Source: Methylomonas rapida
GTDB taxonomy: Bacteria > Pseudomonadota > Gammaproteobacteria > Methylococcales > Methylomonadaceae
Assembly (NCBI RefSeq): GCF_024360925.2
Contig: NZ_CP113517.1
Coordinates: forward strand, 3,410,001-3,474,000
Direction: 5' to 3'
Length of the DNA: 64,000 bases
The notes beneath the pieces were generated by a model, which saw only the letters and a program-made list of their open reading frames with translations, made no database searches and had not been told where the DNA came from. Numbering within the stretch: position 1 is the stretch's first letter; each line of letters begins with the position of its first letter. The translations under genes were made by a program, and so were the position numbers. Below are positions 3,980-15,925 of the stretch, piece by piece.

Positions 3980-4035
3980 TTTGTCTGGTAGCGGGGGCAG
4001 GATTTGAACCTACGACCTTCGGGTTATGAGCCCGA
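3980..4035 (-). repeat. attL: 3' end of tRNA-fMet, 56-bp direct repeat
   Basis: These 56 bases are identical to 15870-15925. On the minus strand they contain the last 50 nt of an initiator tRNA (anticodon loop through CCA). Left of the anticodon the similarity stops abruptly (position 4036 onward), so this is a truncated, non-functional tRNA copy. This is the hallmark of a tyrosine-integrase attachment site within the 3' half of a tRNA gene. Confidence 0.9.
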
Positions 4036-4160
4036 ACAACAGCACATTTCCTGGCGTTGACTGGCATTCCCAAAAATCAATAAATAACTGATTTTTATTG
4101 GAATATAAATTTACCGCTATTTTTATTTGTTGATTGTCATTCCCAAAAATGCCTATAATC

Positions 4161-4269
4161 TGCCTACAAATTGCCTACATGGATTTTCATGTAGGAACTT
4201 CGGGCGAGTTTTCGGGATTTTTTATCCCAGCCCCCACACCTGCCTACATTTGTAGGCAATTTGTAGGCA
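4161..4269. promoter_or_regulatory. Cluster of TGCCTACA integrase arm-type sites, left end
   Basis: TGCCTACA occurs at 4161-4168, 4172-4179 and 4241-4248. Its reverse complement TGTAGGCA occurs at 4251-4258 and 4262-4269, and a shorter TGTAGG at 4190. The same paired motif reappears at the other end (15799-15817). Repeats shared by both ends and lying beside int are expected for integrase arm-binding or excisionase sites. The cluster immediately upstream of int may also autoregulate it. Confidence 0.65.
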
Positions 4270-4276
4270 GACGATT

Positions 4277-5590
4277 ATGGCAACCATCAAACTAACCGGC
4301 GCAAAAATCGACAAGGCACAGCCGGAACCCGGCAAGGCCCAAACATTTATTTGGGACAGCTCAACCCCTGGTCTGGCTCTTCGCATCACTCAATCGGGCG
4401 GCAAGGCCTATATCTTTGAAAGCCGGTTCAATGGCAAAACCATCAGGATGACCATCGGCGACGTTAAAGCCTGGAGCCTTGGCAAGGCCCAAGAGGAAGC
4501 CCGCAGACTTCAAACCCTCATCGATGCCGGACAAGACCCCAGGCAGGTAAAAGCCGAGAAGATCGCCAAAGCCGAGGCCGCCAAAGAGCAGGCCAAAGCC
4601 GATGAAATCCGCAACAGTCTCTTGGTTCAATCCGCGTGGGATGAATACCTAAGCAGCAATCAAGACTATTGGGGCGAACGTCATTACCGGGACCATATCA
4701 ACCTATCCCAGGCCGGCGGACAGCCCAAAAAACGCGGCACAGGCTTAACCGTGCAAGGCGTGTTATATCCATTGCTGCAAATGCGCATGGTCGATATAAG
4801 CGCCAGCGTCTTGGCTGACTGGCAAAAGCGAGAGGCAGAGACACGCGCGAACAATGCCCGGCAAGGGTTTGAAATGTTCCGCGCGTTCTGGCGTTGGTGC
4901 GGACAGCATGAGGTGTATGCGCGTGTGATCGATGCCCCCATCGTCGAGAATCAGGACGTTAGAAAGAAAGTCCCCAGCCGTAAAGCCAAAAAGTTTGACG
5001 TATTACAACGCGCCCACCTGCAAGACTGGTTTGCAGCGGTCCGCAACCTAAGCAATCCGGTTATATCGGCCTACCTGCAAGGCTTGTTACTGACCGGCGC
5101 CCGGCGTGAAGAACTGGCCGAGCTGAAGTGGTCGCATGTCGATTTCAAATTGGGCGCAATGTGGATCAAAGATAAGGTGGATGCCGAAGGCCGCATGATT
5201 CCATTGACGCCTTATTTGCGCAGCCTGATAACCGCCCTGCCCCGGCGCAATGAATGGGTATTCAGTAGCCCCACCGCAGCCGACGGCAGACTAGGAGAAC
5301 CTAGGATTGCCCACAATCGCGCCTTGGATGCGGCCGGCCTGGAACATGTCACTCTGCACGGATTACGACGTACGTTTGCATCATTGGCCGAATGGGTCGA
5401 AATGCCGGTCGGTGTCGTCGCTCAGATCATGGGACACGCGCCCAACGCCACCGCAGAGCGGCATTACAAATCCCGCCCGTTAGAGCTTTTGGCTATCTGG
5501 CACGGTAAATATGAGGCCTGGATATTGGAACAGGCCGGCGTCGAGTTTTCGAACGACAAACAGGTTGAGGGTTTGCGCGTTATCAAATAA
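4277..5590 (+). CDS. int: Tyrosine site-specific integrase
   Basis: A 437-residue P4/DUF4102-type integrase that recombines the element with the tRNA site. The N-terminal arm-binding domain (residues ~1-95: PGLALRITQSGGKAYIFESRF, TIGDVKAWSLGKAQEEAR) is followed by a core-binding domain. The C-terminal catalytic domain has Arg in LLLTGARREELAELKW, His-Leu-Arg-Arg in LHGLRRTFASL, His in IMGHAPN and the nucleophilic Tyr in ERHYKSR. The start ATG lies just after the repeat cluster. All catalytic residues are present, so it is probably active. A broken homologue lies at 3532. Confidence 0.95.
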   Translation: MATIKLTGAKIDKAQPEPGKAQTFIWDSSTPGLALRITQSGGKAYIFESRFNGKTIRMTIGDVKAWSLGKAQEEARRLQTLIDAGQDPRQVKAEKIAKAEAAKEQAKADEIRNSLLVQSAWDEYLSSNQDYWGERHYRDHINLSQAGGQPKKRGTGLTVQGVLYPLLQMRMVDISASVLADWQKREAETRANNARQGFEMFRAFWRWCGQHEVYARVIDAPIVENQDVRKKVPSRKAKKFDVLQRAHLQDWFAAVRNLSNPVISAYLQGLLLTGARREELAELKWSHVDFKLGAMWIKDKVDAEGRMIPLTPYLRSLITALPRRNEWVFSSPTAADGRLGEPRIAHNRALDAAGLEHVTLHGLRRTFASLAEWVEMPVGVVAQIMGHAPNATAERHYKSRPLELLAIWHGKYEAWILEQAGVEFSNDKQVEGLRVIK

Positions 5591-5595
5591 TCCGC

Positions 5596-5623
5596 TTGCA
5601 GCTGCTACCCTGTAACATATAAT
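5596..5623 (+). promoter_or_regulatory. Candidate sigma-70 promoter of the toxin-antitoxin operon
   Basis: TTGCAG (5596-5601), a 16-base spacer and TATAAT (5618-5623). The toxin ATG is at 5629, so the expected transcription start falls at or beside the start codon and no Shine-Dalgarno is visible. The message may be leaderless. Confidence 0.5.
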
Positions 5624-5628
5624 TAACA

Positions 5629-5958
5629 ATGTACACAATCGAAGATTACCAGACAGATGATGGAAAGTTGCCGTTTAAAGATTGGCTTTCCGATTTAGCT
5701 GATCGGCAAGCGAAGGCAAGAGTATTAACGCGAATTCAACGCATGGCAGCCGGTAATCTTGGAGACTGCAAGCCCATACAAGACGGCGTGTGGGAATTGC
5801 GTATCGATTACGGTCCTGGTTATCGCATGTATTACGCGCAGGCCGGCGACAAATTGCTGTTGTTGCTGATCGGTGGCGACAAGCGAAAACAACAGGCCGA
5901 CATTGCCAAGGCCGTTGACTATTGGCAGGATTGGAAACGGAGAACGCGCCATGAGTGA
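5629..5958 (+). CDS. RelE/ParE-family toxin of a HigB-like addiction module
   Basis: A 109-residue protein of the 'addiction module killer' type (COG3657-like): FKDWLSDLADRQAKARVLTRIQRM, then GVWELRIDYGPGYRMYYAQ and LLLLLIGGDKRKQQADIAKA. These proteins fold like RelE and usually cleave mRNA at the ribosome. The stop overlaps the antitoxin start by 8 bases, giving the toxin-first order usual for this family. It probably stabilises the integrated element. Confidence 0.88.
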   Translation: MYTIEDYQTDDGKLPFKDWLSDLADRQAKARVLTRIQRMAAGNLGDCKPIQDGVWELRIDYGPGYRMYYAQAGDKLLLLLIGGDKRKQQADIAKAVDYWQDWKRRTRHE

Positions 5959-14824: not shown

Positions 14825-15024
14825 ATTGGGCGGAAGAGGCTAAAGCATTGGCCGACCTGGTTGAGTTGCTGGCGCTGGAAATCATCGACGCTATTGCACA
14901 GCCAGACGCGCGGCAGGTGCAAGCCTTATATCTGATAACGGAGGCAGGGCAACAGCTTTACGCAGCCAGCATCAACCTAAAGCCGGATGGTGAACAGACC
15001 GAGGGGGCGGAATATGCGGATTAA
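14818..15024 (+). CDS. Small hypothetical helical protein
   Basis: 68 residues from the ATG at 14818 that overlaps the helicase stop. Sequence: MVNWAEEAKALADLVELLALEIIDAIAQ, then QVQALYLITEAGQQLYAASI. It is probably two helices, with no motif. It overlaps the next gene by 11 bases. Support comes from coupling alone. Confidence 0.6.
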   Translation: MVNWAEEAKALADLVELLALEIIDAIAQPDARQVQALYLITEAGQQLYAASINLKPDGEQTEGAEYAD

Positions 15025-15439
15025 TAGCCGGCAAAAAGGCGCCAGCGCAGAACGGGAATTTGCCGGATTGATTGCGGATTGGTGCGGCGTTCGCTTGATT
15101 CGCAATTTGGAGCAAACCAGATCGGGCGGCCATGACTTAATCGTTCACCCGGACGAAATCGGCGCGGTCGCTGATGCGTTCCGTCGTCTGGCTATAGAGT
15201 GTAAACGGTATCAAACCGCCACCGATGCGCAGATTGCAAAATGGTGGACACAGGCACTTATACAGGCCGACGATGCTGGACTGATACCAGTGCTGGCCTA
15301 TCGTGCCAATCGCGCCGCGTGGCGCGTCGTCGTGCCGATTTATCGCATAAATCCGGCGCTTGGCACTAGCCAGCAGATAGAGCACGCGGCAACGCTGACA
15401 GTGGAAGGTTTCTGTCTGTCCATGAGAGAAACAATTTAG
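15014..15439 (+). CDS. PD-(D/E)XK Holliday-junction-resolvase-like protein
   Basis: 141 residues from the ATG at 15014. KGASAEREFAGLIADWCGVRLIRN carries the lysine and glutamate of helix 1, SGGHDLIV the catalytic aspartate, and LAIECKRYQT the E-x-K pair, followed by WWTQALIQADDAGLIPVLAYR. This is the Hjc-like PD-(D/E)XK layout seen in phage resolvase-like endonucleases. It would resolve recombination or replication intermediates made by the upstream proteins. Confidence 0.78.
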   Translation: MRINSRQKGASAEREFAGLIADWCGVRLIRNLEQTRSGGHDLIVHPDEIGAVADAFRRLAIECKRYQTATDAQIAKWWTQALIQADDAGLIPVLAYRANRAAWRVVVPIYRINPALGTSQQIEHAATLTVEGFCLSMRETI

Positions 15440-15490
15440 TTTTACGGGTCCTTCCTGGCAAATCGGGATGCGGGTAATTCGGGCCCCGTT

Positions 15491-15820
15491 TTGATTGTAG
15501 GTAGCAAGGCATTTTTATTAGTTGACGTGGAACAATGCGTGGAACACTTTATAACCTGGAACGGGCAACAACTTGTATGGGGTGCGGAACTGGCACGGCG
15601 GTTAAACCTATCGCGCCAGCGCATAACCAAGATGAGGCAGGGAGGGAAAATCCGTTATGCGGTCGAATTATTGCAACTGTACGATTTCCAGCAGGCGGTT
15701 ATCGATTACGATCGCAACAGCGACCCAGGCCACGTACTCCGACACAAGGCCGACAAACTGGACGCCATTGACCGGCATTCCCAAAAATTTAGCCAAACTG
15801 CCTACAAAGTGCCTACATGA
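15491..15820 (+). CDS. Small helix-turn-helix protein at the right end
   Basis: 109 residues if the TTG at 15491 is used; internal GTG codons (for example at 15528) are alternatives. The recognisable part is VWGAELARRLNLSRQRITKMRQGGKIRYAVELLQLYDFQQAVIDY, a helix-turn-helix like those of small phage regulators. The last codons run through the TGCCTACA arm-site repeats (15799-15817), so the coding end and the recombination site overlap. It could be a second excisionase candidate. Confidence 0.5.
   Translation: MIVGSKAFLLVDVEQCVEHFITWNGQQLVWGAELARRLNLSRQRITKMRQGGKIRYAVELLQLYDFQQAVIDYDRNSDPGHVLRHKADKLDAIDRHSQKFSQTAYKVPT
15799..15817 (+). promoter_or_regulatory. TGCCTACA repeat pair, right end of the element
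   Basis: TGCCTACA at 15799-15806 and 15810-15817 repeats the left-end pair (4161-4179) almost base for base. The preceding GGCATTCCCAAAAAT at 15771-15785 also occurs near the left end (about 4063-4077). The shared, same-orientation blocks at both ends fit integrase arm-binding sites. Confidence 0.6.
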
Positions 15821-15833
15821 AATCGGCAGGCAA

Positions 15834-15867
15834 TAAAAAAGGCCTAGGTCGTCAAACCTAAGCCTTT
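15834..15867 (-). terminator. Rho-independent terminator of tRNA-fMet
   Basis: On the minus strand AAAGGCTTAGGTTT, loop, GACCTAGGCCTTTTTT immediately after the tRNA 3' end. It resembles the left copy at 3942-3974. Confidence 0.8.
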
Positions 15868-15869
15868 GA

Positions 15870-15925
15870 TTTGTCTGGTAGCGGGGGCAGGATTTGAACC
15901 TACGACCTTCGGGTTATGAGCCCGA
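15870..15925 (-). repeat. attR: 56-bp direct repeat within tRNA-fMet
   Basis: Identical to 3980-4035. Here the sequence is the 3' part of an intact tRNA gene, so insertion left the host gene functional. Confidence 0.9.

Follow-up and report, generated by a model that had tools for sequence, protein, structure and literature searches.

Positions 3980–15925 of the window (the whole stretch of 64 000 nucleotides analysed here, from a closed 4.59 Mb Methylomonas-genus chromosome) contain an integrative element of ∼11.9 kb that looks intact and lies inside tRNA-fMet. The question raised by this locus is how an element with replication and recombination genes of its own and no recognizable virion or transfer gene moves between cells. 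Our analysis points to a satellite-like element that is probably silenced by an antisense RNA, replicates itself and uses the particles of a helper phage. The borders and the attachment-site features of the element are as follows.

3980..4035, no strand, attL, 56 bp repeat, 3′ part of tRNA-fMet
4161..4269, no strand, left arm-type sites, five copies of TGCCTACA or its complement
15799..15817, no strand, right arm-type sites, two copies of TGCCTACA
15820..15872, minus strand, tRNA terminator, the element's own copy (sequence comparison)
15870..15925, no strand, attR, 56 bp repeat
15876..15952, minus strand, tRNA-fMet(CAT) (tRNA call and anticodon-stem sequence)

The 56 bp end repeats described in the initial annotation are indeed identical (3980–4035 and 15870–15925) and include the 3′ portion of tRNA-Met(CAT). 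A 49-base core of the repeat, searched with up to three mismatches, occurs at only two places in the closed chromosome, both of which are ends of the element. The anticodon stem of the tRNA at 15876–15952 has three G:C pairs, which we take as the mark of the initiator type. The element's terminator copy (15820–15872) compares with 3927–3979 at 81%, and the arm-type sites are clustered at both ends. Positions 3532–3633 bear the scar of an older, related integrase. The initial annotation did not mention this scar, the arm-type sites or the terminator copy, nor the truncated HigB and the two structured RNAs described below.

The co-directional, tight packing of the genes was confirmed, with 20 listed genes all on the plus strand covering 92% of 4036–15869 and 4 bp overlaps between many neighbours. 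A consensus scan for promoters was at chance level (ten found versus 10.8 expected) and no promoter is therefore claimed. The genes for integration, toxin–antitoxin functions and possible cargo are listed first.

4277..5590, plus strand, tyrosine integrase, 437 aa (PF00589, PF13356)
5629..5958, plus strand, Gp49-like toxin, 109 aa (PF05973)
5951..6265, plus strand, HI1420-type antitoxin (PF21716)
8401..8739, plus strand, HigB-like toxin, start only, truncated (profile matches; comparison with the L045 locus)
8570..8869, plus strand, HigA-like antitoxin (profile matches)
8969..9844, plus strand, 291 aa protein in a variable slot, without family match
9945..10211, plus strand, AlpA/excisionase-like protein, 88 aa (PF12728 below cutoff; PHROG_66, 3.6e-6)

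The replication and recombination genes, together with the small genes among them, are

6642..7022, plus strand, DUF7673 protein, leading the putatively C4-controlled operon (PF24720)
7019..7724, plus strand, three small ORFs (89, 99 and 47 aa) without family match
7721..8386, plus strand, O-like replication initiator, 221 aa (PF13730, PHROG_391)
10208..11023, plus strand, RecE-like exonuclease (PF12684, PHROG_412)
11020..11781, plus strand, RecT annealing protein (PF03837, TIGR00616)
11771..12172, plus strand, conserved 133 aa protein of unassigned function, preceding the RepA-like gene in seven loci
12159..13301, plus strand, AAA_25 ATPase, RSF1010 RepA-like helicase (PF13481; 1g8y, E 1.8e-5)
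13283..14824, plus strand, SF2 helicase (PF04851, PF00271)
14818..15024, plus strand, small ORF, conserved in L045
14987..15439, plus strand, PD-(D/E)XK nuclease, RusA-like resolvase group (PF24608, PHROG_244)
15491..15820, plus strand, HTH protein (HTH109) with a weak TerS-like match (PHROG_57, E 4.9e-4)

Profiles bore out the intact integrase, the RecE-like/RecT pair, the AAA ATPase (AAA_25), the helicase and the PD-(D/E)XK protein (PDDEXK_15) of the initial annotation. The HigB copy in L045 has 92 aa and that in the window is truncated. Pfam scans of the listed genes revealed no primase domain, either stand-alone or fused, and the PHROG matches of AAA_25 to primase-helicases span its ATPase portion only. 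The protein at 11771–12172 was considered as a degenerate Toprim fold and rejected, the model being weak (pLDDT 60.7) with no PDB fold match reaching E 0.001; it has no PDB sequence match, and one uncharacterized phage protein matches it at 9.5e-5. In a search for defence cargo, nine of the ten proteins tried had no PADLOC match and the helicase gave only generic helicase matches.

Two kinds of regulatory RNA that are new here can be assigned from sequence: an int-alpA RNA and a P4/P1-type immunity region with an isrK-like leader and a C4 antisense RNA.

6391..6469, plus strand, isrK-like leader, below gathering score
6414–6420, plus strand, upstream C4 target b1, inside the isrK-like leader
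6430–6436, plus strand, upstream C4 target a1, inside the isrK-like leader, 6/7 match
6507..6590, plus strand, C4 antisense RNA (RF01695, 52.0 bits)
6549–6555 and 6562–6568, plus strand, C4 segments a and b, 7 nt each
6594..6600, plus strand, downstream C4 target b2, by complementarity to C4
6625..6631, plus strand, downstream C4 target a2, overlapping the DUF7673 Shine–Dalgarno sequence
8878..8944, plus strand, int-alpA RNA (RF02996, 60.4 bits)

Both 7 nt segments of C4 are complementary to sites ahead of the DUF7673 start codon (6642), and the operon that starts there continues into the replication initiator gene; by analogy, we infer that C4 controls this operon and hence replication. The C4 codes differ among four elements, and the downstream targets covary in all four, with Watson–Crick pairs at 56 of 56 positions. 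Single matches are not significant against shuffled leaders (a 7-mer is found in 33% of shuffles) and the duplex energy is equalled by 8% and 6% of them. The case for C4 comes from the same two segments matching in four different sequences. Single arms can match the target of a neighbouring element at 6/7, which limits any claim of full heteroimmunity. C4 folds better than shuffled sequences (z −2.25). The fold of the int-alpA RNA is no better than shuffles (z −0.94), so its identification rests on the Rfam score; it lies between the integrase and the AlpA-like gene in all six places where it was found, the latter gene being named by eye in L036 and L042. Two loci, L045 and L089, show no C4 at gathering score and lack the DUF7673–initiator operon by tblastn, so this part is not universal.

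The same gene order was sought in other methanotrophs and recovered in two largely syntenic relatives, both in tRNA-fMet: an element of 9.6 kb in Methylomicrobium sp. RS1 and one of 10.4 kb in a Methylomonas (G007), with an IS3-like transposase pair instead of the RepA-like gene. The integrase has matches at E ≤ 1e-60 in 23 of 301 genomes of the order, its own included, and att repeats flank ten of the 16 regions fetched around such integrases, with a spacing of 2.6 to 29.6 kb. The family is found at varied sites and in varied genera; the element is no lone relic, and we read its lineage as mobile. TerS, PmgG-like and tail-lysozyme genes occur in three related elements that have no match to PHROG_2, GpA or the SPP1-type portal. 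We also looked for an empty site through the right-hand neighbour gene (present in 32 of 37 genomes of the genus), and this approach was abandoned: among the 25 loci fetched only that of the window has a nearby tRNA, so the flank order is not conserved. The att core (≤3 mismatches) is present once in 24 of the 37 genomes, two or three times in seven and not at all in six. Three one-copy genomes (G007, G016 and G024) have a related integrase beside tRNA-Met, with the second copy diverged or missing, and one copy is therefore no proof of an empty site.

Pfam and PHROG scans upheld the initial finding of no virion or transfer genes, with nothing above threshold for terminase large subunit, portal, capsid, tail, lysis, relaxase or secretion; one Replic_Relax match (E 0.058) in the Pfam scans of the element was below cutoff, and no type IV secretion gene was seen. 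A profile search for hidden packaging or capsid genes yielded as packaging-type matches only the weak PHROG_57 match of the last ORF and a sub-cutoff TerS-type match of the first, HI1420-type antitoxin (PF20901, E 0.012). We do not claim HTH109 as a terminase small subunit: its sole match in the 301 genomes is the window's own, no phage record matches at E ≤ 1, its fold model has a pLDDT of 37.7 and its alignment with the resident Nu1-like protein covers just 18 residues (E 0.43). Neither the element nor the relatives examined in 14 named genomes contain a match to PHROG_2, the GpA terminase or the SPP1-type portal; elsewhere in these 14 genomes, as controls, PF05876 was found in three, PF05133 in two and PHROG_2 in 11. 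The search for a resident helper in the element's own genome gave no PF03237 match and one PF05876 match. The only clear terminase gene is of the GpA type, at 2.27 Mb, and is followed by apparent transposon genes (judged by eye). PHROG_2 gave weak matches only (best 7.5e-7, read as ATPase cross-matches) and missed the GpA gene, which means that terminases of other types could escape it. The element and the resident terminase region have no cos-like stretch in common, their longest exact match being 15 bp (E 0.57). The element was found in no viral contig or phage record, near-identical phage matches being tRNA pieces only. In viral contigs the integrase matches L171 (76%), which is identical to element L090 of genome G034 across 12 838 bp, and one other contig at 23%; the RepA-like protein matches at 36% in one and 28% in three, RecT has one match at 43%, the helicase has 44 loci at 21–35%, and RecE and the 291 aa protein have none.

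These data bear on three other readings of the locus. An integrative replicon unlinked to phages, spread by natural transformation, by mobilization in trans from an unrecognized oriT or by generalized transduction, would agree with the self-sufficient replication and recombination genes, with the failure to find a helper, TerS or cos, and with relatives of the RepA-like protein in 29 plasmid records (11 predicted to be mobilizable, all <60% identity). We regard it as unlikely, given that the element lacks a relaxase or secretion gene, that its regulation is of phage type (int-alpA RNA, C4 immunity) and that related elements carry TerS and tail-lysozyme genes. The gene set also resembles a phage early region, with relatives of RecE (1799 phage records, all <60% identity), the helicase and the RepA-like protein in many phage records, and with the truncated HigB and the weak TerS match of the last ORF it could be read as a decayed prophage, the early region of a temperate phage whose late genes were deleted and which lies at a tRNA by chance. 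The two largely syntenic relatives, which belong to other species, are likewise without late genes, both att ends and every listed gene except HigB look intact, and dN/dS is 0.05–0.29 where calculable, all of which makes decay a rather improbable account. Least credible is an island fixed in the genome, no longer mobile and kept for its toxin–antitoxin or other cargo; the two toxin–antitoxin loci and the att copy counts would allow it, and the intact integrase, the arm-type sites, the replication genes and the spread of the same family across varied sites and genera render it very improbable.

We therefore return to a satellite-like element as the probable explanation. Having no recognizable particle genes, it probably travels in the particles of another virus; helper dependence is something that we infer, as the searches gave neither a helper nor a cos/pac site nor a convincing TerS. 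C4 and RecE/RecT occur in ordinary phages too and are thus no proof of a satellite. The earlier alternatives, phage satellite or integrative replicon, bracketed the element correctly, with relatives sharing the tRNA-fMet boundary and the int-alpA RNA and C4 region giving satellite-type wiring; the helper route of spread is putative. In the resting state, C4 would silence the DUF7673 operon, and hence replication, like the CI RNA in satellite P4. On entry or induction of a helper phage, the AlpA-like protein and integrase would excise the element, and the initiator and RepA-like helicase would replicate it. RecE/RecT may then join the copies into concatemers, with the nuclease resolving branches, and the concatemer would be a substrate for the helper terminase and be carried in helper particles, so that the element would need no capsid or terminase gene.

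More tentatively, the methanotroph elements may form a satellite family with a shared integrase and att core, in which modules for replication and for immunity are exchanged. Every member with a C4 would have its own two-part 14 nt C4 code (heteroimmunity), so that several could coexist in one cell, and members with RecE/RecT would make their own concatemers and so be packaged by a helper terminase, with no need for a TerS, primase or capsid gene of the satellite. If the satellite reading is right, the element adds a satellite lineage in methane oxidizers and would show that recombination-based concatemer machinery allows a satellite to dispense with primase, TerS and capsid genes; the C4 codes of the four elements, each matched by its targets, would make immunity groups predictable from sequence. 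Searches of the open PMC library on phage satellites in Methylomonas and in methanotrophs and, among the papers listed, on integrative elements of methanotrophs named no such family.

The element shares the RecE-like/RecT pair with phage early regions and differs from them in that neither it nor its two syntenic sisters have late genes. P4 integrates in a tRNA, as does this element, and its defining genes are an alpha-type primase-helicase and Sid, Psu and Delta. Unlike P4, the element has no primase and no Sid, Psu or Delta match in Pfam and PHROG scans, and has instead RecE/RecT, a RepA-like helicase and an O-like initiator. Gram-negative PICIs such as EcCICFT073 have an integrase, an AlpA-type regulator and a replication module, with some lacking TerS (PMC6092414). 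The element resembles them in its specific att site, integrase and AlpA-like regulator (a match below the Pfam cutoff) and differs in having no detected primase homologue (pri-rep), replication genes of other kinds and no cos found; as regards TerS and cos, it offers a weak PHROG_57 match without relatives and chance-level matches to the resident terminase region. PICMIs are described as small Vibrionaceae satellites with an integrase and AlpA, no capsid-remodelling genes and packaging from concatemers; they adjoin fis and carry a DUF3987/DUF5906 primase, PICMI115 being 6.1 kb (PMC10803314). The element is likewise small, with an integrase and an AlpA-like gene and without capsid-remodelling genes, but its site is tRNA-fMet, no primase was detected in it and its length is roughly double that of PICMI115. 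By its predicted gene content it is without the defining genes of P4, PICI and PICMI satellites. A further likeness to P4 lies in immunity: in P4, an antisense RNA with complementary sites upstream and downstream stops the phage's own replication genes, and the SeqA RNA is termed a structural homologue of IsrK (PMC4825925). As in P4 and P1/P7 immI, the element has a predicted antisense RNA with targets on both sides (one upstream site at 6/7) and an isrK-like leader upstream, and C4 and its targets stand ahead of the replication operon, as does the CI/C4-type RNA in P4-like satellites.

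The window comprises bases 3,410,001–3,474,000 of a closed chromosome of 4,592,903 bases, and the element occupies window positions 3980–15925. The terminal 56-bp repeats (3980–4035 and 15870–15925) are both exact, as the initial annotation had claimed, and the 49-base repeat core has no further site in the chromosome with up to three mismatches allowed. The repeats span the 3' part of tRNA-fMet (15876–15952, minus strand), so that the tRNA stays whole after insertion, and the element supplies a copy of the tRNA terminator that is 81% like the chromosomal one. The motif TGCCTACA and its complement occur seven times in the element, each no more than about 300 bp from an end, versus an expected count of 0.18 per strand. 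GCCTACA copies are also located at both ends of the elements of two compared genomes, G002 and G005; none were found at the ends of the related loci L045, L089, L094, L095, L096 and L099. Comparison of the printed protein starts shows that the window integrase has its N-terminal sequence in common with the G005 and G002 integrases and that those of L045, L089, L094, L095 and L096 are unlike it. The arm sites and the arm-binding domain of the integrase would thus appear, from these sequences, to change together. Directly left of attL (3532–3633) there is a remnant of a second, related integrase (76–79% amino-acid identity across about 33 residues, with one stop), which is the scar left here by an earlier element.

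All 20 listed genes lie on the plus strand, in agreement with the co-directionality noted initially, and cover 92% of 4036–15869. Profile searches bear out the integrase, RecE, RecT, AAA ATPase (AAA_25), helicase (SF2) and PD-(D/E)XK protein (PDDEXK_15) named there, and add two toxin–antitoxin loci, DUF7673 (a family of unknown function), an O-like initiator and an AlpA/excisionase-like protein. The nearest solved structure to the AAA_25 protein is RSF1010 RepA (E = 1.8e-5). The profile scans returned no family match for the 89-, 99-, 47- and 291-residue ORFs or the conserved 133-residue protein, and a single one (E = 0.058) for the small ORF at 14818. HigB is shortened compared with the 92-residue copy of L045. 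Pairwise dN/dS values for the integrase, RecE, RecT, RepA-like protein, helicase, nuclease and conserved 133-residue protein are 0.05–0.29 where calculable (pairs among the window, L045 and L089, with L094 added for the integrase only); they are rough because dS is 1.0–3.2, apart from two saturated pairs (one for the conserved protein and one for HigA).

The RepA-like (AAA_25) protein is present in 14 of 61 genomes including its own (eight of the 14 at E < 1e-100), and a pattern scan of the species-genome collection gave 12 loci, all in Methylococcales, where we take the less common genera among them to belong. The integrase is found at E ≤ 1e-60 in 23 of 301 genomes of the order, own included. 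The same gene order recurs in L045 (Methylomicrobium sp. RS1) and L089 (genome G007). L045 lies at tRNA-Met between att copies spaced by 9.6 kb, has a 78% identical integrase and carries in the window's order the integrase, HigBA, AlpA-like protein, RecE, RecT, conserved protein, RepA-like protein, helicase, small ORF and nuclease; it has no relatives of the first toxin–antitoxin pair, DUF7673, the three small ORFs, the initiator, the 291-residue protein or the ORF HTH109 (15491–15820). The order integrase, HigBA, AlpA-like protein, RecE, RecT, conserved protein, helicase, nuclease is kept in L089 (10.4 kb), where a pair of transposase-like ORFs (by eye of IS3 type) takes the expected RepA-like position. 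Att repeats flank both sides in ten of the 16 regions fetched around E ≤ 1e-60 integrases; the other six (L090, L091, L097, L098, L102 and L103) have a contig end, a truncated integrase or no clear att pair. The tRNA at the boundary is tRNA-Met in six of the ten and tRNA-Lys in two, and ARAGORN found no tRNA at the G002 and G005 elements.

Spacing of att repeats (kb); L088, judged by its length and content, is the same record as L045
L095: 2.65
L094: 6.56
L101: 7.06
L088: 9.64
L099: 10.33
L089: 10.39
L096: 11.01
L092 (G002): 15.14
L100: 17.31
L093 (G005): 29.63

Additional tRNA-fMet 3' copies, diverged past the anticodon and with 2–3 mismatches at the end, occur in G018, G011, G026, G031 and G025, in the first three on the same strand as the exact copy and 13–20 kb away from it; they perhaps mark another element class with a different crossover point.

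Structured RNAs of the element (Rfam scores)
6391–6469: isrK-like leader, 39.5 bits, below the required 50
6507–6590: C4 antisense RNA, 52.0 bits (45 needed)
8878–8944: int-alpA RNA, 60.4 bits (35.8 needed)

The int-alpA RNA reaches the gathering score in five of 22 related loci (L045, L089, L042, L036 and L100) and lies between the integrase and the AlpA-like gene in these and the window (the latter gene named by eye in L036 and L042). C4 reaches it in one of the 22 (L039); scanning L104, L090 and L096 at higher sensitivity located it in L104 (G005; 53.5 bits) and L096 (G025; 44.9 bits, slightly below 45), with none in L090. C4 segments 43–49 (a) and 56–62 (b) are perfectly complementary to downstream sites in all four elements, 32–43 bases past the C4 end for a and 4–10 bases for b, the a site being on or adjoining the Shine–Dalgarno sequence of the next gene. 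Both the a and the b sequences differ in all four elements. Cognate pairing is Watson–Crick at 28/28 positions in each arm; reassigning each target to another element leaves 14–18 and 18–20 of 28 pairs, and the best single target swap 26/28 per arm. Upstream sites match 7/7 for both arms in three elements, and in the window 7/7 (b1) and 6/7 (a1); the chance of a match to a fixed 7-mer is about 0.3% per 60-base stretch. The operon after C4 in the window encodes DUF7673 (6642–7022), three small ORFs and the initiator (221 residues, 7721–8386), with 4-bp overlaps throughout; in L104, L039 and L096 a small ORF, not DUF7673, follows C4.

The RepA–helicase–nuclease module is also found with other integrases in L030, L036 and L039; modules are therefore traded. 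L030 belongs to the window's own genome (G000 4,350,000–4,369,900), where the conserved protein, RepA-like protein (75–78%), helicase and nuclease (10176–13590 of the locus) adjoin an integrase other than that of the element and what looks by eye like a toxin–antitoxin pair. Five compact integrative elements (L037, L038, L040, L041 and L043) share the RepA-like domain, in four of them inside an open frame of 700–800 residues, and DUF5681-like proteins come next in L037, L038 and L047 (the L041 contig). The gene after the int-alpA RNA varies in four loci (window, 291 residues; L045, 187; L089, 246; L100, 398), in a slot (8969–9844 in the window) preceding the AlpA-like gene. Neither PADLOC nor PHROG gave a match for the slot proteins of the window and L045; the slot is a candidate for cargo, with an anti-phage function conceivable. 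L092 and L100, of the same integrase family, carry cargo resembling type I restriction–modification genes by eye.

L039, which has the RepA–helicase–nuclease module without the shared integrase, encodes TerS (PHROG_309, 5.7e-57), a tail lysozyme and a head protein of the PmgG type; relatives of all three genes occur in two loci with the shared integrase, L090 and L093, and the L093 set also has antirepressors (among the matches listed, 25 of 51 families). Searches of 14 genomes, limited to the PHROG_2 and GpA terminases and the SPP1-type portal, gave no match inside these three loci. This combination supports, as something short of proof, the idea that helpers package the family. The element of G034 (L090), with its PmgG-like and tail-lysozyme genes, is stored in IMG/VR as a viral contig (L171, IMGVR_UViG_2744054734_000002), and the same searches of the G034 genome gave nothing. 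Elsewhere in the window's genome (2,269,400–2,276,700), Nu1-like and GpA terminase genes are followed by Tn3-type transposase/resolvase look-alikes (by eye); this is a broken prophage.

The layout of the element, with its integrase, int-alpA RNA, AlpA-like protein, replication genes and antisense immunity and no late genes, would work like that of a satellite, and for the element we infer a helper, a packaging signal and induction. PMC4825925 describes the CI RNA of P4 as pairing with sites upstream and downstream of itself and so stopping the replication genes, and PMC8198154 states that full repression of ant in P1 requires C4. On account of the primase and other genes, the element does not qualify as P4, PICI or PICMI and is therefore not filed under any of the three.
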